A stretch of 64,000 nucleotides of DNA from Congregibacter litoralis KT71 (GTDB taxonomy: Bacteria; Pseudomonadota; Gammaproteobacteria; Pseudomonadales; Halieaceae). The notes beneath the pieces were generated by a model. The model saw only the letters and a list, made by a program, of their open reading frames with translations, was not told where the DNA came from and did no database searches. Made by a program: the position numbers and the translations under genes. Where the stretch lies: the NCBI RefSeq assembly GCF_000153125.2, contig NZ_CM002299.1:3546928-3610927 (forward strand), written 5' to 3'. Positions 43,568-64,000 of this stretch are shown in pieces (within the stretch, counting starts at the first letter, position 1; each line of letters starts with the position of its first letter).

Positions 43568-43765
43568 TCAAGACTCTGCGGACCACACGGCAACCGCGTG
43601 CTCCGGAGCATCTTTGTGTAAGCGCACTCTTTCGAGGCGTAATGTGGTCACTGAAAAGAACTCTCGAAACTCTGCGGTGCCCAGCGTGTAGGCATCGTCT
43701 CTTTGCAACCTAGCAAGCGCTATTGCCCGATTAACGTGGTTGTAGGCTTCAATAAAAGAAAGCAT
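43568..43765 (-). CDS. Terminal cassette-like ORF at the distal end of the integron
   Basis: 65 residues; the ATG at 43765 follows directly after the attC crossover sequence GTTAG, as in many cassettes. No attC is found after its stop; the peptidase gene begins 12 bp further on. So it is either the last cassette without its own attC or a truncated relic. Sequence AIALARLQRDDAYTLGTAEF is not recognised. Confidence 0.45.
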   Translation of the reverse strand: MLSFIEAYNHVNRAIALARLQRDDAYTLGTAEFREFFSVTTLRLERVRLHKDAPEHAVAVWSAES

Positions 43766-43862
43766 CTAACGGCGGTACTCAGGCATTTTTGAGGCGATGC
43801 GTACCTTTGGAACGGCACAAGGGTCCCCCAGGGCAAAGGTGGAGCGCAGCACCCTGTTAGGT
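43764..43862 (-). repeat. attC 1 (array end)
   Basis: 99 bp. R' side CATCTAACGG at 43764, R'' side GTTAGGT at 43856-43862. Last recognisable attC; follows the nucleotidyltransferase gene. Confidence 0.85.
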
Positions 43863-44537
43863 ACCCGTGCCACGCGGGGTATCGAAACCGCTGGCACCCT
43901 CTGGATCTGGAACAGACGCATTCAAGACACGGTCTACAGCAATCTCGATTGAGGTGATCGGCGCGCCAGGCTCAAGCGCGGCCTCCAATGCCTTCAACGT
44001 CGCTGAATCGTGGGTGCGGAGCCAAGACAGGGCCTTTTTCGGCCCTTCAAACCACAAGCCGCGAAGATGGAAGTAATCTTCTAACAACGCTGTAAGTAAC
44101 CAGTGACGGCGATAGTTGCCTTCGGCGTCTGCGCGCTGCATGCGAGCCACCATCTTCGTTGCCCAGATTCTGCGAACCGTGATCTCGTCCGCCGGCAAAG
44201 GTGCTGGGCCTGACACGTAGAGTTCATCCAGACGCTCGAACAACACCGCCGCAGATTCGGTCTTTTGAAAGAGAATCTCAGCACCCCGAAACCTTAGATG
44301 CTCTTCTTCAGGGGCATCAAGTACGGACTCCGGGTAGATGAATGCATCAATAAAGATGCCATCTTGAATCTCCGCTACTCGGGTCACCCTATCTACGGGG
44401 CTAAAAGCGGCGATATCGAGATCACTATCGGCGTTCGCCGATCCATCCGCCAATGAACCGTAAAGCAGGATCGTGTAGGCGTCGTATTGCGCTTTCAGAC
44501 GCTCACAGACCGTTTCCAAAAAATCTCGAGCCTTCAT
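43857..44537 (-). CDS. Nucleotidyltransferase-domain protein (integron cassette)
   Basis: 226 residues. Near residue 25: LLYGSLADGSANADSDLDI gives the GS...SDxD nucleotidyltransferase signature; after it a helical C-terminal domain (RRHWLLTALLEDYFHLRG). Closest in plan to aminoglycoside-adenylyltransferase or MNT-like families, but shorter, and I do not call it a resistance gene. Start ATG overlaps the preceding 61-residue gene by 4 bp. The stop codon TAA is supplied by the attC R'' (CCTAAC). Confidence 0.8.
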   Translation of the reverse strand: MKARDFLETVCERLKAQYDAYTILLYGSLADGSANADSDLDIAAFSPVDRVTRVAEIQDGIFIDAFIYPESVLDAPEEEHLRFRGAEILFQKTESAAVLFERLDELYVSGPAPLPADEITVRRIWATKMVARMQRADAEGNYRRHWLLTALLEDYFHLRGLWFEGPKKALSWLRTHDSATLKALEAALEPGAPITSIEIAVDRVLNASVPDPEGASGFDTPRGTGT

Positions 44538-44719
44538 TTTTCGGGCCTAACGCCGAAAGCAGACGTATGGGAGCCATATAAGCATATATCTATATATGCA
44601 TCGCCAAAGGCCCATCGATATCGCCGCTCCAGTCTTTCTCGGCGTTTATGCTTCATTGGCGCGGCTGCAGCGTCAACAATCGCATCTGCCATTCGAGTCG
44701 ATTGTTCTTTAGCTATCAT
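44534..44719 (-). CDS. Small protein, first gene of a two-gene cassette
   Basis: 61 residues, basic (MKHKRRERLERRYRW). It overlaps the nucleotidyltransferase by 4 bp, so they are co-translated. An IS3 element is inserted 15 bp upstream of its ATG, between the start and attC 2, so its own expression may now depend on IS promoters. Two-gene cassettes with an NTase are often toxin-antitoxin modules (inference). Confidence 0.55.
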   Translation of the reverse strand: MIAKEQSTRMADAIVDAAAAPMKHKRRERLERRYRWAFGDAYIDICLYGSHTSAFGVRPEK

Positions 44720-44797
44720 CTTGCGTCTACCATGTGAATCGCCACCAGTTTGCTAGACACCTTTCAGCCATACAAAATGGCTATCAGAGAGGTGTTT

Positions 44798-45076
44798 ATG
44801 AGCAACAAGCGTTACCCCGAAGAATTCAAGAGAGAAGCCGTTCGCCAGATCACGGATCGCGGCTACAGCGTGGCGGACGTGGCCAGTCGGCTGGGCGTGA
44901 CGACGCACAGTCTGTATGCCTGGGTGAAGAAGTACGGGCCGGCTGCTGAGCAACATCGAGTGGAGGCTGATGATCAGGCCGAGATTCGTCGGCTACAAAA
45001 AGAGCTTAAGCGTGTCACGGAGGAGCGTGACATTCTAAAAAAAGCCGCGGCGTACTTCGCGAGCCAATCCGAGTGA
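44798..45076 (+). CDS. IS3-family OrfA (transposase HTH subunit)
   Basis: 92 residues from ATG 44798. HTH (YSVADVASRLGVTTHSLYAW) followed by a leucine-zipper-like helix (RRLQKELKRVTEERDILKKA). It binds the IS ends. An A7 run at 45037-45043 (A AAA AAG type slippery site) lets ribosomes shift -1 into orfB to make OrfAB. Confidence 0.95.
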   Translation: MSNKRYPEEFKREAVRQITDRGYSVADVASRLGVTTHSLYAWVKKYGPAAEQHRVEADDQAEIRRLQKELKRVTEERDILKKAAAYFASQSE

Positions 45077-45945
45077 GGTACGCTTTTATTCAATCCCATC
45101 GCCACCAGTTGCCGGTGCGGCATCTGTGTTCTTTGCTTAACGTTCACCCCAGCGGTTTCTATGCGTGGCGTCGACAGCCGCTATCGGCTCGCGGTTGTGA
45201 GGACAAGCGGCTCTCTGGCCTGATCAAGCAGTTCTGGCTCGAGTCCGGTGCTGTGTATGGCTATCGGAAGATCCATCGTGATTTGCATGAAATAGGCGAG
45301 TGTTGCGGCCCCAACCGTGTCCACCGTCTCATGAAAGACGCTGGAATCAGGGCGCAGGTTGGATATCGCAAGCCACGGCATAAGGTTGGCAAAGCGCATG
45401 ATGTGACGCCTAACGTACTGCAGAGACAGTTTAATCCGGCTGCGCCGAACGAGCGATGGGCGACCGACATCACCCATATTCGGACCCACGAAGGCTGGTT
45501 GTACCTGGCCGTGGTCATCGACTTATTCTCGCGCCGGGTGATTGGCTGGTCGATGCAATCACGGATCACGAGCGATCTGGTTCTAGATGCCTTGTTGATG
45601 TCGGTGTGGCGTCGCAAGCCGGTGAGCAAGGTACTTGTTCATTCGGACCAGGGCAGTCAATACACAAGCTATGACTGGAGCGCGTTTCTACGCGCAAACG
45701 GCCTTGAGGGCAGTATGAGCAGACGCGGCAACTGCCATGACAACGCAGTCGCTGAAAGCTTCTTCCAGCTACTGAAACGCGAGCGCGTGAAGCGCAAGAT
45801 ATATCCGACCCGGCAGGATGCCCGGGCCGATATCTTTGACTATATCGAGATGTTCTACAACGTCAGACGCCGGCATGGCTCGAACAGCCTGCTGTCACCT
45901 GTAGACTACGAACAGCATCACGAAAAACAGCTGGAAAGTGTCTAG
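45073..45945 (+). CDS. IS3-family OrfB transposase (DDE)
   Basis: 290 residues. Catalytic triad: Asp in WATDITHIRT, Asp in HSDQGSQYTS, and Glu in VAESFFQLLKRE. GTG start overlaps the orfA stop by 4 bp, and the -1 frame is open from the slippery A run to it. Intact, so the element is probably active. Confidence 0.95.
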   Translation: MRYAFIQSHRHQLPVRHLCSLLNVHPSGFYAWRRQPLSARGCEDKRLSGLIKQFWLESGAVYGYRKIHRDLHEIGECCGPNRVHRLMKDAGIRAQVGYRKPRHKVGKAHDVTPNVLQRQFNPAAPNERWATDITHIRTHEGWLYLAVVIDLFSRRVIGWSMQSRITSDLVLDALLMSVWRRKPVSKVLVHSDQGSQYTSYDWSAFLRANGLEGSMSRRGNCHDNAVAESFFQLLKRERVKRKIYPTRQDARADIFDYIEMFYNVRRRHGSNSLLSPVDYEQHHEKQLESV

Positions 45946-45968
45946 AGAACTGGTGGCGATTCAATGAC

Positions 45969-46026
45969 ACCTAACACTTTAAGCAGCGGCGCGCGGAGGG
46001 CGCGTCCAATTAACTTAATTTTTTAG
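45969..46026 (-). repeat. attC 2
   Basis: 58 bp. R' ACCTAAC at 45969-45975; the R'' side is worn (TTAACTTAATTTTTTAGG), so this site may not recombine well. Belongs to the HD-protein cassette. Confidence 0.65.
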
Positions 46027-46607
46027 GATGCATCCAACCATCCCTGCTCCACCGCAGCCTCAACCTTCGATGTTAGCCAGGACCAAATTTCAGGACTTTC
46101 ATCAGCTATAAATCCATGCATTTTTAACACCTGGCTTTTGCAAATGCCGTTCTCCTGCCACGCACGACCGTTGCTTGTGATGTTGTGCAAAAAGGGTAGC
46201 AAACGATCCATTACTTTCAGCAAGACTGCTTCTTTAGTAGTGCCGGTCTCTTGCTCTTCCCATAGCTGAACCAAATCGCTAATCGCGTTTCCAGCGAATG
46301 CCGCTGTGTTGCCGACACTCTCGCGCTTGGCAACATGTGCAACTTCCCTGGTGTCCGCATAGAGAAACGTGTCTCCAGCCCCAATCTCCCCAAGATCATG
46401 GACAAGCGCGAGTTTGATCAAACGGTCCACGTCGAAATCGTCATGGAGAGATTCTGCATAACACCAGCACGCCATCGCTAGATGCCATGAATGCTCCGCG
46501 GAATTTTCACGGCGCTCACCACCTCTAACGTAAGTTCGGCGTTCCACGGTTTTGAGTTCATCCAGATGTAGAAAAAAAGCTGCAAAATTATCGACCTGAA
46601 ATGACAT
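46023..46607 (-). CDS. HD-domain hydrolase, YfbR/HDDC2-like (integron cassette)
   Basis: About 194 residues from ATG 46607. HD motif set: AEHSWHLAMACW (His), LALVHDLGEIGAGD (HD), and a later Asp in VMDRLLPFL. This order is that of HDDC2/YfbR-type metal phosphohydrolases, which act on nucleoside monophosphates. A nucleotide-cleaving cassette could limit phage DNA synthesis (inference). Confidence 0.85.
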   Translation of the reverse strand: MSFQVDNFAAFFLHLDELKTVERRTYVRGGERRENSAEHSWHLAMACWCYAESLHDDFDVDRLIKLALVHDLGEIGAGDTFLYADTREVAHVAKRESVGNTAAFAGNAISDLVQLWEEQETGTTKEAVLLKVMDRLLPFLHNITSNGRAWQENGICKSQVLKMHGFIADESPEIWSWLTSKVEAAVEQGWLDAS

Positions 46608-46616
46608 ATAGAAGCG

Positions 46617-46690
46617 TCCTATCGTCGCGAGGTGCGGCGGCAAACCGCAGGTTTGACTTCCAACGAAGCGGCTTGCCTAGCCTTAGTAGA
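46617..46690 (-). repeat. attC 3 (degenerate)
   Basis: 74 bp. R' side CCTATCG instead of CCTAACG, R'' side CCTTAGTAGA. Position and core GCAACCGC-type stem pattern fit, but both recombination boxes are mutated. Confidence 0.55.
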
Positions 46691-46692
46691 TG

Positions 46693-47394
46693 TCATAAAT
46701 CAGAAATTGAAATAAAACGAATCAACCCTTTTCCGAGATCTGTAGACCTAGACTCATAAGTACCAGACGCAGTCATCATAGTGTGTAGACCATCAGTGGA
46801 TAGTAATCCCTTCAGGTATAGGTCCTTTGAGATAAAGTCATAGAATTCTCTTCGCCCAGCTAGCTCGGGGAAGGCTTTTTCAAGCAATGCGCCCAAGCTG
46901 CTGGTCATCGTAAACTCGGGAGACTTTCGGCCGTGATCCATGAACCATTGCCGCGGATCATGAAAGAGAGAAAGAACTCGAAGATGCCAAGACGTTAGAT
47001 CGTCTACAAAGCGTAGATAGATATTCTGTAAGGAGGCTTCCGGCGGATTGGGCAGAGCAGAGTTAATCACAGCATTCTTCAGCGCGGCTTTCTTCTCGGT
47101 TACTGAAGTGCGAAGAACGATCTGCGTAGCTTCGATTAGTACATCGATAAATTCTTCGTGTTCCAGAAGGGATTGCAGGGATATTTGATCACTCTGAGCA
47201 AGGCGTTGAAGCTCTGCAGCCACATCCTGCATCTATTCGGATTTCCGACGTTCGATTGGAGGCGTCACCAACGAAGTAAACAGCTCCGATGCCGCTGCAC
47301 CGACAATAGGCACGGATGCGAGCGCTGCCCTATTTACCGCGTGAGCATGATCACGCGAGTCTGTTGTTGGAACTTTTAGCTCAGTATCACCCAT
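46693..47394 (-). pseudogene. Cassette gene of unknown function, broken by one TAG
   Basis: One frame from ATG 47394 to 46693, 233 codons, with a single TAG at 47233-47235 between RRKSE and MQDVAAELQRL. Known relatives, from memory, read 'PPLEKRRDEWM...VA..L..L', so the TAG replaces a Trp codon (TGG to TAG). The rest (FHDPRQWFMDHGRKSPEF, TMTSSLGALLEKAFPEL) is helical. Translation could restart at ATG 47232, giving a 179-residue product. Confidence 0.7.
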
Positions 47395-47401
47395 ACTCTG
47401 A

Positions 47402-47483
47402 CCTCTAACGTCTGCAACAGGGGTCGGGCGCGAAGCGGCGGGTCCAGCCCCCGAAGGCCGCGGCTTGCTCGAACTGGTTAGCT
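47402..47483 (-). repeat. attC 4
   Basis: 82 bp. R' CTCTAACG, R'' GTTAGCT at 47477-47483. Confidence 0.9.
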
Positions 47484-48021
47484 AGCCTGATCCTGGAACG
47501 ATCGAATAAACGGCAGCAGGCAGCGGCACGCCCTTGTGCATAATTCTATTCTTGGCAATGCATTCCAAAGTTGCTCCGACTTTCTCAGCAACCCGACGAC
47601 TTGATGAGTTATCGACCATAGTGACAATCTCCAACCTCACCAAGCCAAGGGTATTCATGCCAAACTCAATAATCGCCTCGGTTGCCATTGTGCACAAGCC
47701 ACGATTCTGCATTGATTCCCGAACCCAGTAACCGACATAGCCGATTCGATAATCAGGGTCGATGCGATTGACGGAGATACCGCCAATAAACGTGCTTCCA
47801 TCGGTCTGAAAAATTCCGACATCATAAGCCTTTTGGGCCGTGATGCCTTCTGCGCAGGATGCAAAAAACTTGCTCGCATCTTTCGCTGAGTAGTCTGGCT
47901 TCCACCACGGCATGGTTGGTTCGAGAGTAGTGGCAGTTTCGTGAACAGCGGCTACAAACCGACTCACGTCTCTAGCCTCAAACGGCCGGATCAAAAAGTC
48001 GTCAGTATGCAGCGGAGTCAT
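47482..48021 (-). CDS. GNAT acetyltransferase, RimJ/RimL type (integron cassette)
   Basis: 179 residues. Opens with FLIRPFEARDVSRF, the usual start of RimJ/RimL-like N-acetyltransferases; acetyl-CoA site near VGYWVRESMQNRGLCTMATEA and the end motif VEKVGATLE-like (VAEKVGATLECIAKNRI). It should transfer acetyl from acetyl-CoA to an amine; the acceptor is unknown. Stop codon lies in the attC. Confidence 0.9.
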   Translation of the reverse strand: MTPLHTDDFLIRPFEARDVSRFVAAVHETATTLEPTMPWWKPDYSAKDASKFFASCAEGITAQKAYDVGIFQTDGSTFIGGISVNRIDPDYRIGYVGYWVRESMQNRGLCTMATEAIIEFGMNTLGLVRLEIVTMVDNSSSRRVAEKVGATLECIAKNRIMHKGVPLPAAVYSIVPGSG

Positions 48022-48028
48022 TCTTGCT

Positions 48029-48089
48029 AGCTAACGCTTCAAGCTAGTGGCGGCGTTTTTAAGCCGTGCACTTCGATTGCTGGTTAGCA
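48029..48089 (-). repeat. attC 5
   Basis: 61 bp. R' AGCTAACG, R'' GTTAGCA at 48083-48089. The membrane-protein gene upstream ends 30 bp inside this site. Confidence 0.9.
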
Positions 48090-48388
48090 TTACTTTGCTC
48101 GTCATTTGTATCTAATTGCTCAGAAGAACTCGCTACACTTTTTGTTACTAAATGCACAAAAGCAGCCATAGCGCCAAAACTAGCAGCTTCGTTTGAAAAT
48201 ATTCTAATACTTGGAATAGCCCCCAGAAACGCGACAAATGCAATAGAAACAATTAGACCTAGTAGCGCATACAAAAGCGAAATTTTCGTCGTTGAGCTCT
48301 TATCGTTTCTTTCCTGTAATGTTAACGCCGTGTGCTGACGCCACATCTTGTGAGGCGGGGAACACAGATGACTACGAAAACTCAACAT
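48059..48388 (-). CDS. Small membrane protein (integron cassette)
   Basis: 109 residues, two hydrophobic helices (ISLLYALLGLIVSIAFVAFL and SFGAMAAFVHLVT). The last ~10 codons, QSKCTA and before, are coded by attC DNA. Start ATG 48388 overlaps the next upstream gene by 17 bp; ATG 48346 is an alternative. The overlap suggests the two form one cassette. Confidence 0.6.
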   Translation of the reverse strand: MLSFRSHLCSPPHKMWRQHTALTLQERNDKSSTTKISLLYALLGLIVSIAFVAFLGAIPSIRIFSNEAASFGAMAAFVHLVTKSVASSSEQLDTNDEQSNANQQSKCTA

Positions 48389-48713
48389 TGCTTCGAAGTC
48401 CAGCTATAAAAGAAATTAATAGTGCGACGCTGAGAGCAACACCCAACACAAAGAACGTTAGCAACAAGCTATCGCCCGCCCGGGATGAATGACCCAGAGT
48501 GAAGAAAGCGACCGAGGAACAAAGAGACCAGTATATGGCGAGAAAACCAGTGCGCCGCCTCCCTGTCACCCACCCCACGACTCCAAGCGGCAGTGTAATG
48601 GTTACAGCCACGACGGCTGGAGTGAACGGTGCGGACGCCAAGAAAGCACAGAGAGCCGCGAGAATTTGCGAGAAAAACATGACCGCCGTCCACAGCTTGC
48701 TCACGACATTCAA
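48372..48713 (-). CDS. Small membrane protein (integron cassette)
   Basis: 113 residues with four hydrophobic stretches (LWTAVMFFSQILAALCAFLA, FTPAVVAVTITLPLGVVGWV, FLAIYWSLCSSVAFFTLG, LLTFFVLGVALSVALLI). TTG start at 48713, right after attC 6. Two-gene cassette with the membrane protein downstream. Confidence 0.6.
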   Translation of the reverse strand: MNVVSKLWTAVMFFSQILAALCAFLASAPFTPAVVAVTITLPLGVVGWVTGRRRTGFLAIYWSLCSSVAFFTLGHSSRAGDSLLLTFFVLGVALSVALLISFIAGLRSNVEFS

Positions 48714-48720
48714 TGCCCCC

Positions 48721-48808
48721 GCCTAACGCTTCAAGCTGAGGCCGCTTGACCGCGCAGCGGTTACGACGTCCCGGCGCGAAGCGCACTTGCAGCCTTTACT
48801 TGTTACGT
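48721..48808 (-). repeat. attC 6
   Basis: 88 bp. R' CGCCTAACG, R'' GTTACGT at 48802-48808. Near-identical to attC 27 (61257-61344), its partner in the duplicated cassette pair. Confidence 0.92.
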
Positions 48809-48820
48809 GTGCGACCAAGC

Positions 48821-49159
48821 TCAAGCCTCGATAACGAGAAGCGTGATTTTTGTGCTACCCATTTCTAACTCGGACTCAATATTAGGATCAACTAGCACAG
48901 AAAATGCGTGATTCTCGCTTGATAGGCTTAGGCTGCCACTAAGTAAAATTTTACCGCTCTCTTCGGGCGACGCCTGTAACGACAAATCGTACGTCTCATC
49001 CACCGATATGGCAGCCCCTGCACCACGCTTCATCGAGATGCTTGGCGCATCAATGAGCTCGCCTTCAGAGTAAATCTTTGCCGCTACATGTAGTTTCGCG
49101 TCAGCTAAAGACTGAAGCGGGAATAGAATTAAAAGCAATAAGCAAAAAGCTTTCTTCAT
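48821..49159 (-). CDS. Small exported protein (integron cassette), copy 1
   Basis: 112 residues. Signal peptide KAFCLLLLILFPLQSLADA. Mature part is beta-rich (TYDLSLQASPEESGKILLS, SGSLSLSSENHAFSVLVD). Complete, unlike the duplicate at 61357-61695, which has a premature TAG and a GTG start. Confidence 0.75.
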   Translation of the reverse strand: MKKAFCLLLLILFPLQSLADAKLHVAAKIYSEGELIDAPSISMKRGAGAAISVDETYDLSLQASPEESGKILLSGSLSLSSENHAFSVLVDPNIESELEMGSTKITLLVIEA

Positions 49160-49188
49160 GGTAAATACTCCTTCGATATCCTCGAGTA

Positions 49189-49264
49189 CACAATACGCTT
49201 CAATAACCGGCGTGCTGCAAGCATGTCAGGCGCCGAAGGCGTGTGGTTGATTCACTTGTTAAGT
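49189..49264 (-). repeat. attC 7
   Basis: 76 bp. R' side CACAATACG instead of CACATAACG, R'' GTTAAGT at 49258-49264. Paired with attC 28. Confidence 0.8.
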
Positions 49265-49284
49265 GACCGAATCCTCTGCCATCG

Positions 49285-49512
49285 CTAATGACATTCGCAG
49301 CTCCTGGATCTACCAGAACTACTGAATCCTCTATAGGCTCTTTTCAAAATCGGTGCCGTGTACGAATAGCGCTGACCCAATTCTTCACATTTCTCCTGGC
49401 ACCTGCGTTCGTCCCACATAAGCCATGCCTTTGCCAAAATTACTAAGGCACACAACAGAATGACCCAAGCAAAGTAATGCCCGTCGTTAATCTGTTCGCT
49501 TGAGGGGGTCAC
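49285..49512 (-). CDS. Small membrane protein (integron cassette), copy 1
   Basis: 75 residues, one membrane helix (HYFAWVILLCALVILAKAWL), then a basic, Cys-containing tail (RRCQEKCEELGQRYSYTA). Start GTG lies two bases into the cassette after GTTAG. Duplicate at 61822-62049 differs by about one residue. Confidence 0.7.
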   Translation of the reverse strand: MTPSSEQINDGHYFAWVILLCALVILAKAWLMWDERRCQEKCEELGQRYSYTAPILKRAYRGFSSSGRSRSCECH

Positions 49513-49598
49513 CTAACGCTTCAAGCTGGGGCGGCGGAACCGCGCAGCGGTTACAACATCCCGTCGCGAGGCGCCTTTACAGCCTCCACTTGTTAGGT
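49511..49598 (-). repeat. attC 8
   Basis: 88 bp. R' ACCTAACG, R'' GTTAGGT at 49592-49598. Differs from attC 29, the matching neighbour in copy 2. Confidence 0.9.
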
Positions 49599-49622: not shown

Positions 49623-49823
49623 TCATGGTGAACCACCGACATCGTCGTAAGCATTCTCGGGGCCGCGAGGTGCCAACGAGAATTCGACGAAAACTTTCCC
49701 TTTATTGGAACCGAACTTCCAGTTCTCGAATGGATCCATGTCGACAGAAACATAACGCCGCAGAAACTCAATTATCGCTACAAATTCGCTACTGGTTAGA
49801 CTTTCCATTTCGCTAACACTCAT
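49623..49823 (-). CDS. Small cassette protein of unknown function
   Basis: About 66 residues from ATG 49823. Helix-rich start (SVSEMESLTSSEFVAIIEFL), then FENWKFGSNKGKVFVEFSLA. A longer frame from 49862 would start inside attC R', so 49823 is preferred. No family recognised. Confidence 0.55.
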   Translation of the reverse strand: MSVSEMESLTSSEFVAIIEFLRRYVSVDMDPFENWKFGSNKGKVFVEFSLAPRGPENAYDDVGGSP

Positions 49824-50264: not shown

Positions 50265-50335
50265 GCCTAACGCTTGCGGCTGGGGCGGCGAGCCGAGTAG
50301 CGGGTTGACGCCCCGCCAGCCCGCATTGGTTAGCT
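50265..50335 (-). repeat. attC 10
   Basis: 71 bp. R' GCCTAACG at 50265, R'' GTTAGCT at 50329-50335. Confidence 0.92.
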
Positions 50336-50773
50336 GCACACTGCTTCAAGGTAACTCCTCAGCCGAGAAACCAGCGCTGGAACAGCTTGTGGATGCGCGA
50401 GAAAGTCTTCAATCTGCATCAAGTCCCAGTATTGCCCCTCTGCACCAAACACGATGGCATCTATCTCGAAGTGAAATCCTTTCGCTACGAAGAAGTACGA
50501 GCTACCTATGCCACTTGTGCTGGTCACCCTACGCCTATAAGCAAGCCGAGTAGCAGGGATAGAGAGCGCAAACTCTTCATACAATTCACGTAGAACACAC
50601 TCTTCTGGTGACTCTTGGCCTTCGCGACCACCTCCAGGGAAATCCCAGCAGCCCGGGAACGGAATATGTTCGAAATTATCGCGCTTGTAGACTAGGACCT
50701 TACTCCCAAAAAGCAGTGCTAGCTTAGAACCCGAAAATTCAACGTTCACGTCCTTGGTTCCAAGTTCGATCAA
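50330..50773 (-). CDS. Nudix hydrolase (integron cassette)
   Basis: 147 residues. Nudix box complete: GGGREGQESPEECVLRELYE followed by E, as G-x5-E-x7-REUxEExGU. Beta strand VLVYKRDNFEHIPFPGCWDF precedes it. It would cleave a nucleoside diphosphate linked to another group, perhaps to clean up nucleotides; substrate unknown. Stop codon lies in the attC. Confidence 0.92.
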   Translation of the reverse strand: MIELGTKDVNVEFSGSKLALLFGSKVLVYKRDNFEHIPFPGCWDFPGGGREGQESPEECVLRELYEEFALSIPATRLAYRRRVTSTSGIGSSYFFVAKGFHFEIDAIVFGAEGQYWDLMQIEDFLAHPQAVPALVSRLRSYLEAVCS

Positions 50774-50777
50774 GGGC

Positions 50778-51900: not shown

Positions 51901-51985
51901 CACGTAACGCCGCCAACTGCGACGAGTGAAACGTAGTGTAGCGAGTCCGGCAGACGGAGGCTGCGAACTCCTTGGCCTTATTGAT
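51901..51985 (-). repeat. attC 13
   Basis: 85 bp. R' ACGTAACG; R'' side degenerate (CTTATTGATAC). Confidence 0.7.
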
Positions 51986-52510: not shown

Positions 52511-52867
52511 CTACTTCATACCTGCGCCAACGGTTGCACGTACTGGAATACCAGCGGAATCGAAGTCCTCTAGGCAGAACACATTTACCCCGAAATAATC
52601 AGGAGTAACGCGCTTTCGATGAAACGGATAAATGCCACACACTTTACAGAAGTAATGCTCCGCTGTGTGACTGTGAAATTGATAAGTACCCAGGCAATCT
52701 TGGCCGGAGGTAATGCGCATTGATGATTCGTGTACCTTTACCATCAGCGCGTTTTTACGAACGCAGAGTGAGCAATCGCAGGTGGTGAGCTCCGGAAAGT
52801 CTGAGTCAATTTCAAATCTGATCGCTTGGCAGTGACAGGAACCCTTAAAGGTCAATTTTTTCCTCAT
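52511..52867 (-). CDS. GFA/CENP-V-family zinc protein (integron cassette)
   Basis: 118 residues. Zn-binding Cys pattern: GSCHCQAI, CDCSLCVRK and HYFCKVCGIYPFHR, the glutathione-dependent formaldehyde-activating (GFA) plan. Members bind two Zn ions and may handle S-hydroxymethylglutathione; the true substrate is often unknown. Complete. Confidence 0.93.
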   Translation of the reverse strand: MRKKLTFKGSCHCQAIRFEIDSDFPELTTCDCSLCVRKNALMVKVHESSMRITSGQDCLGTYQFHSHTAEHYFCKVCGIYPFHRKRVTPDYFGVNVFCLEDFDSAGIPVRATVGAGMK

Positions 52868-54427: not shown

Positions 54428-54852
54428 GGCGATAAATACACCCAACGCATCTCCAGCATAGTTGAACAATAACCCGAGAAAATACAGCACGAACGCCACA
54501 ACTACACCTCCTATAACTGCCTGCTTAAGCCAAGCAACTCTGTCCTTACCGGGCCGGTAGAAGCGTACTTGCGGGAATGCCGACTTGACCAGATTGCGAA
54601 GCCCCTGACTCAAAGGCGTCCATAGATTGGAGAATACGAGAAGTACAAGTAGGAAACTTACAAGAAAAGCATTATCAATTTGCAGCTTAGGTGCAATCTT
54701 AGACCCACCCCAGAGGCTCAATACGAAGCCCGATAATACGCCCGTGATTTGAATGAGCAGGTAAATGAATGGGTTCTTAAGCCATGCATTGAGGTCGGTC
54801 GGAATTCGTGGAGTCCATCGGATCGTTTATCTTTACGATCTGGAGGACAACG

Positions 54853-55155
54853 ATGGAAAGAATCCCCAAGGCATCTTACACGCCGGAGTTCCGGGCTGAG
54901 GCCGTGAAGCTGGTTGAGTCGACCGGCATGTCGGTGGCGAAGGCGGCAGAGCGGCTGTCGATCCCCAAGAGCAGTCTCAGTAACTGGGTGCGTGCAGCCC
55001 GGGCAGGAAAGCTGAAGCAGGTGGGTGAGCATCAGCGCGCACCCACAGAGCTTGAGATGGAGCTGGCCCGTGCCCGGCGTGAGCTCGCTGAGGTCAAGCA
55101 GGAGCGCGATCTGCTAAAAAAGTTTGCGGCGTACTTCGCGAAGGAATCCCGGTGA
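54853..55155 (+). CDS. IS3-family OrfA (transposase HTH subunit)
   Basis: 100 residues from ATG 54853 with GGAGGA upstream. HTH (TGMSVAKAAERLSIPKSSLS) and a leucine-rich coiled tail (ELARARRELAEVKQERDLLK). A slippery A AAA AAG at 55116-55122 fits programmed -1 frameshifting. Confidence 0.93.
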   Translation: MERIPKASYTPEFRAEAVKLVESTGMSVAKAAERLSIPKSSLSNWVRAARAGKLKQVGEHQRAPTELEMELARARRELAEVKQERDLLKKFAAYFAKESR

Positions 55156-56028
55156 GGTACGCGCAGATTCACCGGCTACGGCACGAGCACTCTGTCGCCG
55201 CGATGTGCCGTCTGCTGGACGTATCCGAGAGCGGCTACTACGCCTGGCGCAAGCGGCCGCCCGTCACCACGGTCGAAGGCGAACGCGCGTTTGACGCTGG
55301 AGATCAAGGCGGCTCACGAGCGCACGCGCAGGACGTATGGTCCCGAGCGACTTCAGTCCGATCTTGCCGACAACGGTATTCGTGTCGGCGTACACCGCAT
55401 CAAGCGTATTCGCCGCGAGCAGGGCCTTCGCTGCAAGCAGAAGCGGCGGTTCCGTGTGACCACGGACTCGAAGCACAGGCTGCCTGTGGCGCCGAACCGG
55501 CTTGCCAGACAGTTCTCCGTCGATGTGCCGAACAAGGTGTGGCTGACGGATCTCACCTACGTCGACACCGCCGAGGGCTGGCTGTACCTGGCAGGCATCA
55601 AAGACCTGTTCAACGGGGAGCTTGTCGGATACGCGATGTCGGAACGGATGACGGTTAACCTGACGGAGACGGCACTGCGCCGTGCGATCGATGTCAGGCA
55701 ACCAGGTCCTGGGCTTCTTCATCATTCCGATCGCGGCAGTCAGTACTGTGCGAGGAGCTATCAGCAGCTGCTACGGCAGCACCAGATGCTGTCGTCCATG
55801 AGCCGCAAAGGAAACTGTTGGGACAACGCGCCGATGGAGAGCGTTTGGGGAATCCTGAAGTCGGAGCTCATTCACCATGAACGCTTTGAGACGCGTGCGC
55901 AGGCGAGAGCAGCGATCCGGGAGTATATTGAGATCTTCTACAACCGGACTCGGAAACAAGCGCGCCTCGGTTACCTATCCCCGGTACAGTACGCTACGCA
56001 GCACCGCCACAGTCAGGTGGCATATTGA
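55152..56028 (+). pseudogene. IS3-family OrfB transposase with frameshift
   Basis: Frame 1 reads from 55152 (YAQIHRLRHEHSVAAMCRLL, then ESGYYAWRKRP) to about 55287. The rest is in the +1 frame from about 55291: LTLEIKAAHERTRRTYGPER, WLTDLTYVDTAEGW (Asp 1), HHSDRGSQYC (Asp 2), APMESVWGILKSE (Glu). So catalytic residues remain, but one base change at ~55287-55292 breaks the protein; the programmed orfA/orfB shift is elsewhere. Confidence 0.88.
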
Positions 56029-58349: not shown

Positions 58350-58437
58350 CCATTAACGCATGCCGCAGCGGCGGCGAAACCGCACAGCGGTTTTAACGTC
58401 CGGGCCCGCAGGGCCGAACTGCCGGTTCTTGTTATGC
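58350..58437 (-). repeat. attC 22
   Basis: 88 bp. R' CATTAACG, R'' GTTATGC at 58431-58437. Confidence 0.92.
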
Positions 58438-58956: not shown

Positions 58957-59030
58957 AACGCTTCAAGCTGGGGCGGCCGCGCAGCGGACGTCCCGGCGCG
59001 AAGCGCCCTTGCAGCCTTGACTGGTTATGT
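58953..59030 (-). repeat. attC 23
   Basis: 78 bp. R' GCATAACG, R'' GTTATGT at 59024-59030. Confidence 0.93.
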
Positions 59031-59408
59031 GCTCTGTTTGACGATTTCTGGTGTTTTTGAACATGCCTTTTCTATCGCTTTAGTTGTTACGGCGACTACG
59101 CCCTCGGGGTAGTCGATCGAGACCTTACGTTCCAATTTCTTCGACAGCTCGGATAAACCTAAGCCTAAACCAGTACACGATAGATCGGCAGCTGCCTGAA
59201 CGAAAGCTTCTACCACTACCGGGTCAGCGTCGGGTAGCTCAAGGAGAACGCCACTCCGAACCTTATCTTCGAAGGAAGGTTCGGCGATTATCTTCTCAAT
59301 CAAGCTGAACACATGATCGCAGTCGCAGTCTGATTCTTGAGCGATTGAAGAAAAAGGCGCGAAACCCGCAAGAGATACCGTCAAAACAACAATGATCAGA
59401 AGTTTAAT
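59025..59408 (-). CDS. Exported cassette protein with a non-standard ATT start
   Basis: The reading frame has no ATG, GTG or TTG at the start of its signal peptide. AGGA lies 8 bp before ATT AAA CTT (59406-59408), where the peptide I/M-KLLIIVVLTVSLAGFAP begins. The ATT is best read as a mutated ATG, or a rare start. Mature part DCDCDHVFSLIEKIIAEP then helices to KACSKTPEIVKQST. About 127 residues. Stop in attC. Confidence 0.55.
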   Translation of the reverse strand: MKLLIIVVLTVSLAGFAPFSSIAQESDCDCDHVFSLIEKIIAEPSFEDKVRSGVLLELPDADPVVVEAFVQAAADLSCTGLGLGLSELSKKLERKVSIDYPEGVVAVTTKAIEKACSKTPEIVKQST

Positions 59409-59445
59409 TGTGCTATTCCTCGCGCACGGTGTCGGATGAAGCGGC

Positions 59446-59520
59446 ACATAACGCTGCCAGCACGGGCGAGCAGCCGAAGGTTGCGAGTCCAGCGAAGCGG
59501 CGTGCCTAGCCTTGTTAGGG
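59446..59520 (-). repeat. attC 24
   Basis: 75 bp. R' ACATAACG, R'' GTTAGGG at 59514-59520. Confidence 0.92.
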
Positions 59521-59530
59521 TGCCTGTAAA

Positions 59531-59818
59531 TCAACTGAGGTACACCCCAACTGCCTGAAGAGAGAAGCCGATGGCCACAATAAGCAGGCCCCACTTCGCG
59601 GCACATCGTTCCCGTTTGCCCCATTGAGCAAAACCCTCAGTGACGACTGGCTTAGGCGAATCAAGATCCTCAAATTTTCTACTCTGCTCTATTGGTTCAC
59701 CGGTGTACGGGAAAAAAACTGCGTACCCGATTAGGCATACGCCAACAATGTCTGCCATGAGGCCTATGATAGTTAGGACCTTAGGATCCGTAAGTAACTC
59801 TGGCGTCACCACGAGCAA
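59531..59818 (-). CDS. Small two-helix membrane protein (integron cassette)
   Basis: 95 residues. Helices VLTIIGLMADIVGVCLIGYA and KWGLLIVAIGFSLQAVGVYL with a polar loop between. TTG or GTG start near 59812-59818. No family. Confidence 0.6.
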   Translation of the reverse strand: MLVVTPELLTDPKVLTIIGLMADIVGVCLIGYAVFFPYTGEPIEQSRKFEDLDSPKPVVTEGFAQWGKRERCAAKWGLLIVAIGFSLQAVGVYLS

Positions 59819-59822
59819 GGCA

Positions 59823-59927
59823 CTCTAACGCCTTTCTTCAGCGGCCAATGCATGATGGCGTGACTTTTGCGTTTTTTGCAGAAGGCATGACAACATGATT
59901 TGGTCCGACTGCAAGGATTTGTTAGGC
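59823..59927 (-). repeat. attC 25
   Basis: 105 bp, the longest. R' CTCTAACG, R'' GTTAGGC at 59921-59927. Confidence 0.92.
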
Positions 59928-59934
59928 CTGCTCA

Positions 59935-60891
59935 CTATAAAACCTTCAGAAACGGCTGCTTCGCTACGACAGCTGCCTGCGACTTCTTTCGTAGAAACTT
60001 AAGAAGGTCTGTTTCGTTCTGCAGGAGCATCACCAGTTCCTGGAGCGAGCACAGAAACATTGTCCGTTGATTGAGTGCGTTGGCACACTCTTTAAGAACA
60101 GGTTCAGTGAACTCGCTATTGGAAATAAAGATGCCGTTCGCGTTTGCGCGACTGAACAGCCGAACCAAATGTGGTGAAAAGTCAGCAATGCCTACTGGAT
60201 CCTTTAGCCATTTCATCTCGACAAGATGAATGGTTCCATCTAATAGAATCACTCCATCAACTTGTTCGAGGACGGTGTTTGAATCGGGGTCTCGTCGCTT
60301 GAAGTCCTCATGCACAAGTATGCCGTAAGCTCTGAATATACCATTGAGTACTACTTCCAGTTTTTTCCCACGAATCTGTGGTTTGTCCTCAAGGGCAAAT
60401 AGAGAAAAGAGTTGATCTTTGAGGTCACTTATCTGCTTTTTCCTCGCATGCTCTGCTGCTCGCTCAGCTTGCACCGCGGCCTGCACGTGAGCTTTCTCGG
60501 AATCACGCTCCTGCTTCATGCGAGTAAAAGAGTCCTTAACATTTACAACGCGGCGTACTTCAGAAACCGCTCCCTTAGCCTTGAGCTGGTCTGCTGGCCA
60601 GCAGGACGAGAAATCTTCAAATTCAACTACTCTTTTTATGATTTCACGACGCGGTGCGAGAGTTGGATCGCCGCGAGAATTAAGAGATTCAATAACTGTC
60701 CGTGCTATCTGATACTTGTTTACTGACTTCGAATCAGCGCGCAATTGATTCGTGAGTGGAGTCAGAATGGCCTCCGGTGTACCAGCTCCACGGAAGAAGA
60801 CAAGAACGTCATTCTTGCTCCTACAGAGAAGAGGAATGGTGTCTACCAGAAGGGAGAGTAGCTCAGGTGGATAGTGGTAAGTGTCAGCCAT
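59935..60891 (-). CDS. Mrr-like restriction endonuclease with N-terminal helical domain (integron cassette)
   Basis: 318 residues. C-terminal half (~165-318) has a Mrr_cat-like nuclease core: KKLEVVLNGIFRAYGILVHE, EQVDGVILLDGTIHLVEMKW (D...E-x-K), then VRLFSRANANGIFISNSEF. The N-terminal ~140 residues are a separate helical block (LLSLLVDTIPLLCRSKNDVL, IIKRVVEFEDFSSCW, VVNVKDSFTRMKQER) joined by a coiled stretch (AAVQAERAAEHARKKQISDL). It probably cuts DNA and protects against phage, with the N-domain choosing or sensing the target. Single-gene cassette, no methylase, so it may be modification-dependent. Confidence 0.8.
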   Translation of the reverse strand: MADTYHYPPELLSLLVDTIPLLCRSKNDVLVFFRGAGTPEAILTPLTNQLRADSKSVNKYQIARTVIESLNSRGDPTLAPRREIIKRVVEFEDFSSCWPADQLKAKGAVSEVRRVVNVKDSFTRMKQERDSEKAHVQAAVQAERAAEHARKKQISDLKDQLFSLFALEDKPQIRGKKLEVVLNGIFRAYGILVHEDFKRRDPDSNTVLEQVDGVILLDGTIHLVEMKWLKDPVGIADFSPHLVRLFSRANANGIFISNSEFTEPVLKECANALNQRTMFLCSLQELVMLLQNETDLLKFLRKKSQAAVVAKQPFLKVL

Positions 60892-60926
60892 GCTTTAATT
60901 TTCAGTCTCGGGTGGATAACTTGGTG

Positions 60927-61001
60927 GCCTAACGCTTCGGTTTGGGGCGGACCACGCAGTGGGCCGTCCCAGCCGAAGGCGCCAACACCGACTTGTTATG
61001 T
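60927..61001 (-). repeat. attC 26
   Basis: 75 bp. R' GCCTAACG, R'' GTTATGT at 60995-61001. Confidence 0.92.
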
Positions 61002-61004
61002 GTC

Positions 61005-61247
61005 CTAAGCTGGAACATAGAAACACCATACACAATTACTAAGTTCGCCAGCGGCAAACTCTATGGTATTACCGCCCACCTCAATAGAGTAAGGCCACAA
61101 CGTATGGCGCTGGGAAGGGTAGGTAGGATGAGGCACCTCTAATGCTGAATCATCCAATCGCGACCACTCAAAGTCCCACACGTTCGCGCCCTCTAATTCT
61201 AAAGGCTCTCCATCATGAACTACTTCAAGTAACTTCCAGTCTCTCAT
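61005..61247 (-). CDS. Small Trp-rich cassette protein
   Basis: 80 residues. WKLLEVVHDGEPLELEGANV, WDFEWSRLDDSALE, then IEVGGNTIEFAAGELSNCVW. Soluble, no signal peptide, about four Trp. Family unknown. Confidence 0.6.
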   Translation of the reverse strand: MRDWKLLEVVHDGEPLELEGANVWDFEWSRLDDSALEVPHPTYPSQRHTLWPYSIEVGGNTIEFAAGELSNCVWCFYVPA

Positions 61248-61256
61248 CGGGTAGAC

Positions 61257-61344
61257 ACATAACGCTTCAAGCTGAGGCGGCTTGACCGCGCAGCGGTTAC
61301 GACGTCCCGGCGCGAAGCGCCCTTGCAGCCTTGACTTGTTATGT
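61257..61344 (-). repeat. attC 27
   Basis: 88 bp. R' ACATAACG, R'' GTTATGT at 61338-61344. Near-identical to attC 6. Confidence 0.93.
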
Positions 61345-61356
61345 GTGCGACCAAGC

Positions 61357-61695
61357 TCAAGCCTCGATAACGAGAAGCGTGATTTTTGTGCTACCCATTT
61401 CTAACTCGGCCTCAATACTATGATCAACTAGCACAGAAAGTGCGTGATTCTAGCTTGATAGGCTTAGGCTGCCACTAAGTAAACTTTTACCGCTCTCTTC
61501 GAGCGACGCCTGTAACGACAAATCGTACGTCCCATCCACCGATATGGCAGCCCCTGCACCACGCTTCATCGAGATGCTTGGCGCACCAATGAGCTCGCCT
61601 TCAGAGTAAATCTTTGCCGCTACATGTAGTTTCGCGTCAGCTAAAGACTGAAGCGGGAATAGAATTAAAAGCAATAAGCAAAAAGCTTTCTTCAC
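61357..61695 (-). pseudogene. Copy 2 of the 112-residue exported cassette protein, broken by TAG
   Basis: Same 339-bp frame length as copy 1 (48821-49159), but a TAG at 61450-61452 replaces GAG, giving 81 residues instead of 112, ending SLSLSS. The start codon is GTG where copy 1 has ATG. Several conservative changes (D to G, P to L). The signal peptide remains. Confidence 0.85.
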
Positions 61696-61725
61696 GGCAA
61701 ATACTCCTTTTATATCCTCGAGTAC

Positions 61726-61800
61726 ACATAACTCTTCAATAACTGGCGTGCTGCAAGCATGTCCGGCGCCGAGGGCGCGTAGTTGATTGAATTGTTAGGT
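61726..61800 (-). repeat. attC 28
   Basis: 75 bp. R' ACATAACT, R'' GTTAGGT at 61794-61800. Paired with attC 7. Confidence 0.85.
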
Positions 61801-61821
61801 GACCGAAATCCTCTGCCATCG

Positions 61822-62049
61822 CTAATGACATTCGCAACTCCTAGATCTACCAGAACTCCTGAATCCTCTATAGGCTCTTTTCAAAATCGGTGCCGTGTAC
61901 GAATAGCGCTGACCCAATTCTTCACATTTCTCCTGGCACCTGCGTTCGTCCCACATAAGCCATGCCTTTGCCAAAATTACTAAGGCACACAACAGAATGA
62001 CCCAGGCAAAGTAATGCCCGTCGTTAATCTGCTCGCTTGAGGGGGTCAC
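61822..62049 (-). CDS. Small membrane protein (integron cassette), copy 2
   Basis: 75 residues, near-identical to the protein at 49285-49512 (YRGFRSSGRS in place of YRGFSSSGRS). One helix HYFAWVILLCALVILAKAWL. GTG start two bases after the attC crossover. Confidence 0.7.
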   Translation of the reverse strand: MTPSSEQINDGHYFAWVILLCALVILAKAWLMWDERRCQEKCEELGQRYSYTAPILKRAYRGFRSSGRSRSCECH

Positions 62050-62143
62050 CTAACGCCCACGGCAGCGAGCGGCCAAACGGGTGCGAAAGACCTGCTTGGA
62101 CGTCCGGCGAGCGCAGGGAGCGCGCTGCCCGTTCTTGTTATGT
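62048..62143 (-). repeat. attC 29
   Basis: 96 bp. R' ACCTAACG, R'' GTTATGT at 62137-62143. Confidence 0.92.
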
Positions 62144-62150
62144 TTGCGGC

Positions 62151-62447
62151 CTACCATAGATGCTGATTTTCGCCGTTTTCGTTTGTCGGTGGTTCCACAA
62201 ACACCTCTCCACACACTCGACAAGCATGATTCAGCAAAGGAGTAACCCGTCCGACATTCTCGCCGCAGCTCGGACACTTAGAAGACATTATTCTCCAAGC
62301 TAAATACCACCAAGAAAGCAACGCTAACAAAAGCAGTATCGCTAGTGGCGGGAAAAAAAACGCGCCTAGCGCGAAAACAGCCATAAAAAGGAAGGCAGAC
62401 CGCTGCCTGCTTACTAATCTGATCTGGCGTTCTAGGTACGGAGTCAT
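62151..62447 (-). CDS. Membrane protein with zinc-ribbon tail (integron cassette)
   Basis: 98 residues. Two or more helices (LFMAVFALGAFFFPPLAILL, LLALLSWWYLAW) then CPSCGENVGRVTPLLNHACRVCG, a CxxC-x(n)-CxxC zinc-ribbon. A short acidic, Asn/Glu-rich tail follows. No family. Confidence 0.7.
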   Translation of the reverse strand: MTPYLERQIRLVSRQRSAFLFMAVFALGAFFFPPLAILLLLALLSWWYLAWRIMSSKCPSCGENVGRVTPLLNHACRVCGEVFVEPPTNENGENQHLW

Positions 62448-62457
62448 GACCTAGTAC

Positions 62458-62547
62458 ACATAACGCCTGCGGCAGCGAGCGCACCAACCGCGCAGCGGTT
62501 TGGGCGTCCGGCGACCGAAGGGAGAGTACTGCCCGCACTTGTTAACT
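62458..62547 (-). repeat. attC 30
   Basis: 90 bp. R' ACATAACG, R'' GTTAACT at 62541-62547. Confidence 0.92.
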
Positions 62548-62967
62548 GTATGCCTTGATAAACCGTCGCTCATCTTCTACGTACCCCAATGACTTATAGA
62601 AAGCGTGTGCATCGCCGCGATGCTCGCCACTCGTGACCTCGGAGCGAATACACCCGGCCCTTTGAAAGAACTCTTCCGCTGCTTCGATGAGACTACGGCC
62701 TATACCAGTATTTCGGTGCTCTTCATCTACTACGAAGCTAGTAATGCGACCCAACGAGCCATCCTGGTGAAAAAGGCTCGTAAGGTGACATGAGACAACG
62801 CCACAAACCGCTCCGCCAGACTCGGCTACAAATACCTGATCGAGCGCCTCGGTCTCAAACGTTTCGAGCTTTTCAGATATCAGGCCTGCACTCGTGGCGT
62901 ATCCCAGTTGGGCCATCAAGTTGCAGATGTGGTTTGCGTCTTCCAGTGTGGCAGTTCGTATGAGCAT
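62542..62967 (-). CDS. GNAT acetyltransferase (integron cassette)
   Basis: 141 residues. Opens IRTATLEDANHICNLMAQLG. Motif A in ITSFVVDEEHRNTGIGRSLI, then EVTSGEHRGDAHAFYKSLGY. Complete and of usual length. Substrate unknown. Stop codon in attC. Confidence 0.92.
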   Translation of the reverse strand: MLIRTATLEDANHICNLMAQLGYATSAGLISEKLETFETEALDQVFVAESGGAVCGVVSCHLTSLFHQDGSLGRITSFVVDEEHRNTGIGRSLIEAAEEFFQRAGCIRSEVTSGEHRGDAHAFYKSLGYVEDERRFIKAYS

Positions 62968-62969
62968 AC

Positions 62970-63054
62970 AGTTAACGCTGCCGGCACGGGCGAGTGTAAC
63001 GCAGTGTAGCGAGTCCAGCGCACGTCGTGCGCGGCGTGCCCGGCCTTGTTAAGT
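62970..63054 (-). repeat. attC 31
   Basis: 85 bp. R' AGTTAACG, R'' GTTAAGT at 63048-63054. Confidence 0.9.
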
Positions 63055-63057
63055 GCG

Positions 63058-63450
63058 TCATTTGAGTACTGCCCAGATTGAAACCGACAGTGCGACACAA
63101 GAGATGGCCATTGGAAACATGAAACGGTTAAACGAGAGCTTGTGCTCGGCGAGCACAGCAGCAAGCAAAGGAAAGTTCACAGCGTGACGGTCTTTACCTA
63201 CTTTGAAGGCGAAAAGATACACCTTGCTCCCGTCCTCCTGCGTATACCGGTACTTCTGGTCCAGATGGTAGTACAAGCGGCCAAATAGTAGGTGCTCATC
63301 CATCCGTAGACGCCTTGCTAGTAGCTCACAATCTATCGGGACATAGATTTTCGAACTCCTGGAGTTGGGAGTCTGCTCGTACTGCTGAAATTCAGCGTAG
63401 TACTCTTTAAAAATAGTGTCGAGGATATTACCGTCGCTCGGATTCTTCAT
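63058..63450 (-). CDS. C-terminally anchored cassette protein
   Basis: About 130 residues from ATG 63450. Soluble front (ILDTIFKEYYAEFQQYEQTP, LARRLRMDEHLLFGRLYYHL) and a C-terminal helix (MFPMAISCVALSVSIWAVLK), so likely tail-anchored. No family recognised. Confidence 0.65.
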   Translation of the reverse strand: MKNPSDGNILDTIFKEYYAEFQQYEQTPNSRSSKIYVPIDCELLARRLRMDEHLLFGRLYYHLDQKYRYTQEDGSKVYLFAFKVGKDRHAVNFPLLAAVLAEHKLSFNRFMFPMAISCVALSVSIWAVLK

Positions 63451-63458
63451 TGGCAGGC

Positions 63459-63531
63459 ACTTAACGCCCACAGCAGCGGCGCGCGTTAGCGCGTCCAGCC
63501 CGCAGGGCGATGCTGACTTTGCTTGTTATGT
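63459..63531 (-). repeat. attC 32
   Basis: 73 bp. R' ACTTAACG, R'' GTTATGT at 63525-63531. Confidence 0.92.
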
Positions 63532-63831
63532 GTTTTGCCATTGAATACCACCTGTAACTTTTGATTCGGCCGCTGCAATGGCTTCATTTATATTTTGGAA
63601 ACCTTGGGAGTCAACCCAAGTTGGTTCTTGGCTCTCACCTGCATTTCGGAACCGCACATAATAAAGAACACCATGTTCATTTAGCGGTTCTGGCTCTTCG
63701 TCTGGTTCTAACATGTCGTCAGCTTTAGCTAAGCTATACCACCAGTCATAAGGGAGATTGATTATATCGACTGGTTTCTTAGCCACACCGTCGTATAACC
63801 AAACTCCTCTTCTTTCTATGGTGATGCTCAT
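63526..63831 (-). CDS. Small cassette protein of unknown function
   Basis: 101 residues, soluble. RRGVWLYDGVAKKPVDIINL, YDWWYSLAKADDMLEPDEEP, then a C-terminal helix (NINEAIAAAESKVTGGI). Stop from attC R''. No family. Confidence 0.65.
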   Translation of the reverse strand: MSITIERRGVWLYDGVAKKPVDIINLPYDWWYSLAKADDMLEPDEEPEPLNEHGVLYYVRFRNAGESQEPTWVDSQGFQNINEAIAAAESKVTGGIQWQNT

Positions 63832-63847
63832 TCAGACTTACTCGTAC

Positions 63848-63937
63848 ACATAACGCTGCCAGCAGCGGGCGTCCAAGCCGCGCAGCGGTTTGGACGTCCA
63901 GCGACCGAAGGGAGCGAACTGCCTGGCCTGGTTAAGT
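63848..63937 (-). repeat. attC 33
   Basis: 90 bp. R' ACATAACG, R'' GTTAAGT at 63931-63937. The last site before the right edge. Confidence 0.93.
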
Positions 63938-64000
63938 GGCTGACTGCACACGTGTAGCGCCCCACGCAATAGCGACAACGACCCCGAGCACGATACCGGC
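63932..64000 (-). CDS. 3' end of a cassette membrane protein (cut by window edge)
   Basis: The last 22 codons (AGIVLGVVVAIAWGATRVQS...) and a TAA supplied by attC 33. It is a hydrophobic C-terminus; the rest lies beyond the window. Confidence 0.65.
   Translation of the reverse strand, partial: AGIVLGVVVAIAWGATRVQSAT

Follow-up and report, generated by a model that had tools for sequence, protein, structure and literature searches.

The question raised by this locus is whether a 20 kb run of short repeats and small genes in Congregibacter litoralis KT71 is the cassette array of a chromosomal integron and, if so, what became of its integrase. The window analysed was the whole stretch of 64,000 nucleotides, at positions 3546928-3610927 of a genome assembled as one contig (4,351,117 bases). 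Features past its right end are given as window-equivalent positions. The repeats are the attC sites of what is very probably a native sedentary chromosomal integron with captured cassettes, whose integrase gene, intI, is now a pseudogene and was probably once paired with dnaE2. The dnaE2 gene encodes an SOS-controlled mutagenic polymerase. As an array it is a sedentary chromosomal integron of the ordinary sort, its integrase inactivated. What may surprise a specialist is how intI is paired with dnaE2 across the family Halieaceae; if the two are confirmed as one unit, this is the interesting lead.

The initial annotation had listed 33 attC sites of 55-105 bp in one direction. This was borne out by an arm-profile scan and a covariance model, with all 33 sites on the minus strand. 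A 34th attC was found just past the window (window-equivalent 64281-64364). The covariance model was trained on 27 sites, of which 25 are in the window, one lies just past it and one is elsewhere in the genome; most of its matches in the window are therefore not independent. It matched 31 window sites at E<=5, 29 of these at E<0.01, while the sites at 59823 and 43764 showed only with filters off and in short stretches. Seven sites were low scorers of 10-28 bits (43764, 45969, 46617, 47403, 48029, 51902 and 59823). The arm-profile threshold which gave 31 real matches gave 0-2 in ten first-order shuffles of the same 23 kb. One of the 31 matches, at 49750-49801, had no covariance-model match and was dropped from the count. 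By the same scan no attC was found on the plus strand of 43001-66000, and positions 1-43000 gave no minus-strand matches and three weak plus-strand matches.

Each attC folds as an R box, an unpaired spacer, an L box, one extrahelical base and a variable middle, which are the defining attC features of an integron. Pairing in the attC alignment covered 86.2% of cells compared to 67.7% when shuffled, and the covariation score was 0.439 compared to 0.143; none of 500 shuffles was as high on either measure. All eight pairs on the L-box side change on both sides. Two of the five fold measures (pairs changing on both sides and further pair types) were no higher than in the shuffles. The family is coherent, with self-complementary variable middles, as first described. 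A strict RYYYAAC/GTTRRRY search with full R-box pairing found just three candidates in the array region, a failure explained by the outer bases being part of the neighbouring cassette. Rfam gave no match at gathering scores in the window or in 20 kb from window-equivalent 60074.

A cassette entering as a circle cut between G and TT would bring its own tail to its own start, on the intI side, and the final six bases of each attC in the array would then come from the adjacent cassette, distal to intI. In that case the three outer R-box bases are expected to pair with the tail at the start of their own cassette and not with the adjacent tail. Pairing with the own-start tail was found at 92 of 102 positions (34 sites), compared to 49 of 102 for the adjacent tail and 46 of 99 for the next distal tail. 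Random assignment of tails gave a mean of 45.8 (standard deviation 4.3) and none of 10,000 permutations reached 92. There were 32 informative sites, of which 28 favoured the swap, three the opposite and one was a tie. The figures of 92 and 49 follow boundary corrections at 51902 and 59823 that were made after the first result; the initial boundaries gave 87 of 102 and 48 of 102. This R-box swap is the predicted footprint of the G^TT crossover of circular cassettes, the exchange expected of an integron. Another family of repeats between small genes, similar to repetitive extragenic palindromes or miniature inverted-repeat transposable elements, would also be palindromic and lie beside open reading frames (ORFs), as these repeats do. 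However, all 33 share a single orientation, they have the unpaired spacer, the extrahelical base and the covarying L box, and an intI homologue with a LexA box stands at the end of the array. The R-box swap contradicts such an origin, which can be set aside as extremely improbable.

The integron had been proposed to be sedentary and chromosomal with its integrase to the right, outside the window. An IntI homologue was found there, scoring over the TIGR02249 cut-off of 265 bits, which none of 14 control genomes passed. The gene is divergent from the cassettes and lies 698 bp past the nearest attC. The proposed location was correct; the corrections are that the gene carries two in-frame stops (TGA at codon 38 and TAG at codon 155, with no frameshift) and that a further intI is present elsewhere in the chromosome. 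An integron integrase gene therefore adjoins the array, yet as it stands its product is predicted to be non-functional. These 20 kb had also been taken as the distal part of a large array. The chromosomal integron stood but the distal placing did not, since the integrase begins about 1.06 kb past the window end and the window holds 33 of the 34 attC sites. The array has 34 cassettes in total.

The predicted LexA box at the start of intI is of the type described for SOS-controlled integron integrases (Cambray et al. 2011). Otherwise invariant residues are changed at four of 120 columns in the array IntI, one of them being a stop. The most such departures among 22 of the other 29 family loci compared was three. 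Given the stops and the few changes at invariant residues, the array intI looks like a recent pseudogene, otherwise nearly intact and with its LexA box kept. With its integrase broken, the array should no longer be able to change by itself. Integrase inactivation is frequent, and the passages of Cambray et al. 2011 (PMC3108266) on this point give 43% of 1,135 homologues.

Among 70 integrases placed in a tree, the array IntI was sister to the IntI of the same-genus genome G003 (100/92), inside the 29-row family clade (100/98). The second IntI of the chromosome was sister to that of Zhongshania marina (99/93), in a clade of Porticoccaceae, Spongiibacteraceae and Microbulbifer. By these positions the array integrase is placed as native to the family and vertically inherited, and the intact one as foreign-type and probably acquired. 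A mobile integron (class 1-5) was rejected, as the array is chromosomal, on the single 4.35 Mb contig, and its IntI is in the family's own clade; two insertion sequence (IS) elements of the IS3 family are known inside the array, and the flanks were covered without a systematic transposon search. Open intI genes were found in the same-genus genomes G001 and G003. The fourth genome of the genus, G002, had no IntI match at E<=1e-40 but keeps four attC sites, three at E<=0.05 and a fourth that is degenerate.

The score of attC sites fell with distance from intI (Spearman -0.52, p 0.0017, 34 sites), a correlation which is partly circular as the eight sites outside the training set are low-scoring and include the five most distal. 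The mean was 18.5 bits for the five most distal sites and 63.7 bits for the ten nearest intI. This decay would suit a relic, a decaying attC cluster long without a working integrase, as would the two IS elements inside the array, the 4.3% divergence of a duplicated block and the attC sites kept by G002 in the lack of an intI match. Such a relic is quite improbable, as the adjacent intI has only the four changed columns, the proximal attC sites are near perfect (up to 93 bits) and the decay looks recent. The array was not classed as a CALIN (an attC cluster without a nearby intI) as the intI pseudogene adjoins it.

A native integron of this kind would have been built by an IntI tyrosine recombinase that captured circular cassettes by cutting folded, single-stranded attC sites at the G^TT of their R box. 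Cassettes would have joined at attI beside intI and piled up, and the left end is presumed to be the oldest because the attC sites there have decayed. The strand folding of attC in the cell and the role of attI are established for integrons. As a case of integrase loss the locus combines a one-contig genome, an intact and probably foreign integrase in the same cell, and a related genome, G002, with a shared distal stretch and no intI match. It would be a clean case for the fate of a stored gene collection once its recombinase dies.

The initial annotation implied a single host-specific array. This did not hold: besides the second intI and its single attC, the chromosome contains at least four stray attC sites, grouped at 2185143-2186182 and 3721200-3722332. 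The second integron locus, with intI, attC and a DUF3024 cassette, spans 1147212-1148972 of the chromosome (L020:17212-18972). One of each stray pair resembles an array attC (90% to 63848 and 82% to 57137). The counts of stray sites are lower bounds, as the whole-genome searches scored 150 of 2,177-2,957 candidates per genome (150 of 2,578 in the window's genome) and recovered 30 of the array's own 34 sites.

The intact IntI at 1.148 Mb could still move cassettes of the array in trans. Its gene is open and above the TIGR02249 cut-off. Recognition of attC by an integrase is structural, and the second integron's attC shares the structural family of the array sites (60.7 bits); it was itself among the 27 used for training. 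The stray sites at 2.185 and 3.721-3.722 Mb indicate that cassettes do sit elsewhere. An array kept alive through excision and insertion by this integrase is possible but rather doubtful. No cassette was common to the second integron and the array by blastn at E<=1e-8, and the second intI had no LexA box (<=1 mismatch) in 450 bp around its start. The cassettes of the four stray sites and of the second integron had no exact copy of the expected tail in the stretch searched.

The family survey covered 140 genomes, of which 36 had an IntI match at E<=1e-40. The dnaE2 gene directly followed intI, within about 80 bp of its stop, in 24 of the 36 (13 of 15 genera). It follows in the same direction 15 bp on in G001 and G003. 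Examples are at L102:2825-6973 and L100:11157-15371, with 22 further family genomes. A gap of 448 bp separates the two genes in G140. The window's genome is among 11 of the 36 with no dnaE2 downstream of intI in the stretch examined (>=1.8 kb); two of these (G045 and G046) have integrases of another type with 49-50% identity to that of G003. No dnaE2 was found downstream of intI (1.5-10.4 kb examined) in 44 named loci (L023-L066), mostly from Microbulbifer, Porticoccaceae and Spongiibacteraceae with some unplaced, or in four loci of other families of the order. Linkage changed at least five times within the family clade on the tree, in a direction that was not readable.

A perfect LexA box was present at the start of intI, with none in the 450 bp before dnaE2, in 12 of the 24 linked genomes. 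These include G132 and G139, each with a one-mismatch site inside intI. G047 and G048 are like the 12 but have a box-like site about 300 bp inside intI, giving 14 of 24. Eight others had a perfect box just before dnaE2, and one of these (G010) also had one at intI. No perfect box was seen in G059 and G073, where intI is damaged or cut by the contig end. The intI genes of G004 and G072 are partial and the absence of a box at their start says little. The own box before dnaE2 in the eight genomes would fit genes that are mere neighbours without shared transcription. Against this, the 12-14 genomes with a box at intI have none close to dnaE2, and their dnaE2 starts no more than about 20 bp from where intI ends. 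Simple neighbourhood is therefore considered unlikely.

The chances are about even that intI and dnaE2 form one LexA-controlled unit in the family, that the window's genome is a natural break-up of it, and that the foreign IntI may have taken over the array. If so, a single promoter would turn on both cassette shuffling and error-prone synthesis upon DNA damage. The pairing would physically link two SOS-controlled sources of variation which are usually treated apart, and whether gene shuffling and mutation are selected together would become testable. No description of an intI-dnaE2 unit was found in searches of the open-access literature, most subscription journals being outside the scope, and the relevant passages of PMC3108266, PMC13114513, PMC3323433 and PMC9578287 describe none.

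The dnaE2 gene of the window's genome is at 3789978-3793085 of the chromosome, 177 kb from the broken intI, and has its own LexA box. G002 resembles it in this, with a LexA box belonging to dnaE2 itself and 190 kb between that gene and the attC remnant. Aligned to the G003 locus by blastn, the broken intI matches up to 5 bp past its stop codon. About 80 bp beyond the end of the match lies a fragment of 210 bp (window-equivalent 66155-66364) from a repeated element carrying a tyrosine recombinase. The element encodes a 400-aa tyrosine recombinase and has two copies about 100 kb apart (74212-76766 and L104:11940-14498) which are 90% identical. Originally intI probably headed an SOS-controlled intI-dnaE2 unit of the kind present in G001 and G003. 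An insertion or rearrangement after the intI stop would most simply explain its separation from dnaE2, and intI would have decayed afterwards, the order of these events being inferred.

A number of points qualify or weigh against this account of a native integron that lost its integrase. Recombination by the attC sites of the array is predicted from their sequence and fold. The attC count in the window falls to 26 if the seven low-scoring sites are left out, and nine of the 34 sites miss the swap rule at one or two of the three bases. The lack of an exact tail copy for the second integron's cassette, in the stretch searched, also counts against it. The attI junction is presumed from one core site, GTTAAAT, where the first cassette begins, which fits that cassette's R box (3/3). 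A sequencing error behind the stops in intI is unlikely, since the genome is one contig and there are two stops but no frameshift. Seven of the nine native-type loci unlinked to dnaE2 have an open intI (G017 being counted among the nine although outside the tree), and the linked G059 and G072 have a damaged intI. Linkage by itself therefore does not predict intactness, and the idea that it protects intI from decay was dropped as unsupported.

Several known systems were compared with the locus. The Vibrio superintegron has over 150 cassettes in V. cholerae according to the portion of PMC3323433 that deals with it. As there, the cassettes all run one way, diverging from intI, and are mostly unknown, the attC family is coherent and a LexA box is present at intI. 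Unlike it, the present array has 34 cassettes and a broken integrase, and its chromosome carries another intI of foreign type. The closest counterpart of the array, as far as the relevant part of PMC12444791 describes it, is found in Xanthomonas, where intI is located at ilvD and is often inactivated by stops or deletions, with further attC clusters elsewhere and some foreign intI. A platform vertically inherited at a fixed gene, integrase inactivation, extra attC clusters and a foreign intI are shared. The usual neighbour in the Halieaceae, however, is dnaE2 downstream of intI and not ilvD, and intI keeps its LexA box. The imuA-imuB-dnaE2 SOS mutagenesis cassette also has a LexA-controlled dnaE2 and goes with the superintegron-bearing chromosome in Vibrionaceae, as the passages of PMC3323433 concerned describe, but the paired genomes have intI directly upstream of dnaE2 in the expected place of imuB. 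Pfam PF00817 (Y-family) matched once in each of the genus's four genomes, either on a different contig from dnaE2 or far away from it, no ImuB-specific model being used.

Table 1. Features of the cassette array, its integrase gene and the second integrase gene. Positions are those of the window or window-equivalent unless stated.
Feature	Position	Strand	Evidence or remark
intI pseudogene	window-equivalent 65063-66076	+	TIGR02249, 426.9 bits
Predicted LexA box CTGT-N8-ACAG	window-equivalent 65055-65070		motif search, zero mismatches; overlaps intI start
Presumed attI core	window-equivalent ~64782		outside window; one core site
First cassette gene, 138 aa, DUF4019	window-equivalent 64368-64784		outside window; Pfam
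Cassette array, 33 of 34 attC in window	43764-63937	-	cassettes read away from intI
Second, intact intI, 349 aa	1147923-1148972 of chromosome		TIGR02249, 425.6 bits; with one attC and one DUF3024 cassette
Most distal (terminal) attC, degenerate	43764-43862	-	10.2 bits; outer R-box bases fit intI-side tail 3/3
Degenerate attC	45969-46028	-	covariance model, 22.3 bits
Degenerate attC	46617-46691	-	covariance model, 16.4 bits
Long degenerate attC, 105 bp	59823-59927	-	covariance model, filters off, 14.7 bits
Top-scoring attC	61257-61344	-	covariance model, 93 bits
Nucleotidyltransferase-domain gene, last cassette	43857-44537	-	Pfam
HD-domain gene (HD_3, YfbR-like)	46023-46643	-	Pfam
Distal cassettes: GNAT 47482-48021, ORF 48372-48713	47403-48808	-	attC at 47403-47483, 48029-48089, 48721-48808
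NUDIX hydrolase cassette gene	50330-50773	-	Pfam
GFA-domain cassette gene	52511-52867	-	Pfam
GNAT acetyltransferase cassette gene, one of five in array	62542-62967	-	Pfam
Two-cassette block, duplication copy 1	48724-49519	-	95.7% over 797 bp
Two-cassette block, duplication copy 2	61260-62056	-	first ORF 81 aa, compared to 112 aa in copy 1
IS3-family element within array	44735-45963	+	100% over 1229 bp to copy at 2.18 Mb of chromosome
Second IS3-family element within array	54808-56028	+	from ORFs only, ends approximate

The cargo had been described as mostly without recognised function, and 26 of the 36 cassette ORFs indeed had no Pfam match over the cut-off. The other ten comprised five GNAT acetyltransferases, NUDIX, GFA, HD_3, NTP_transf_2 and DUF4019. 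An aminoglycoside acetyltransferase identity for the GNAT cassettes was rejected in favour of generic GNAT, as the NCBIfam matches were weak (best 1.6e-7 among the 25 of 40 families listed). As to defence genes, the only matches of the 36 ORFs to PADLOC candidate models were of the NUDIX (E 3.6e-11) and nucleotidyltransferase (E 1.7e-6) domains.

G002 had nucleotide identities of 93% to 47406-48210 and 89% to 48409-48805, compared to 72-80% in the other stretches compared between the two genomes. As it is more alike than these, the shared distal stretch may have been exchanged between genomes. Its counterpart in G002 is L121:8375-10224. The attC sites of the G003 array matched those of the window by blastn in the stretches compared but the cassette genes did not. 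In G001 a single attC stands beyond dnaE2 together with one small ORF of 110 aa (L100:10575-11203). Away from the array, a 488-aa minus-strand ORF at 25383-26849 has a CxxxCxxC motif and by eye is possibly a radical-SAM protein.

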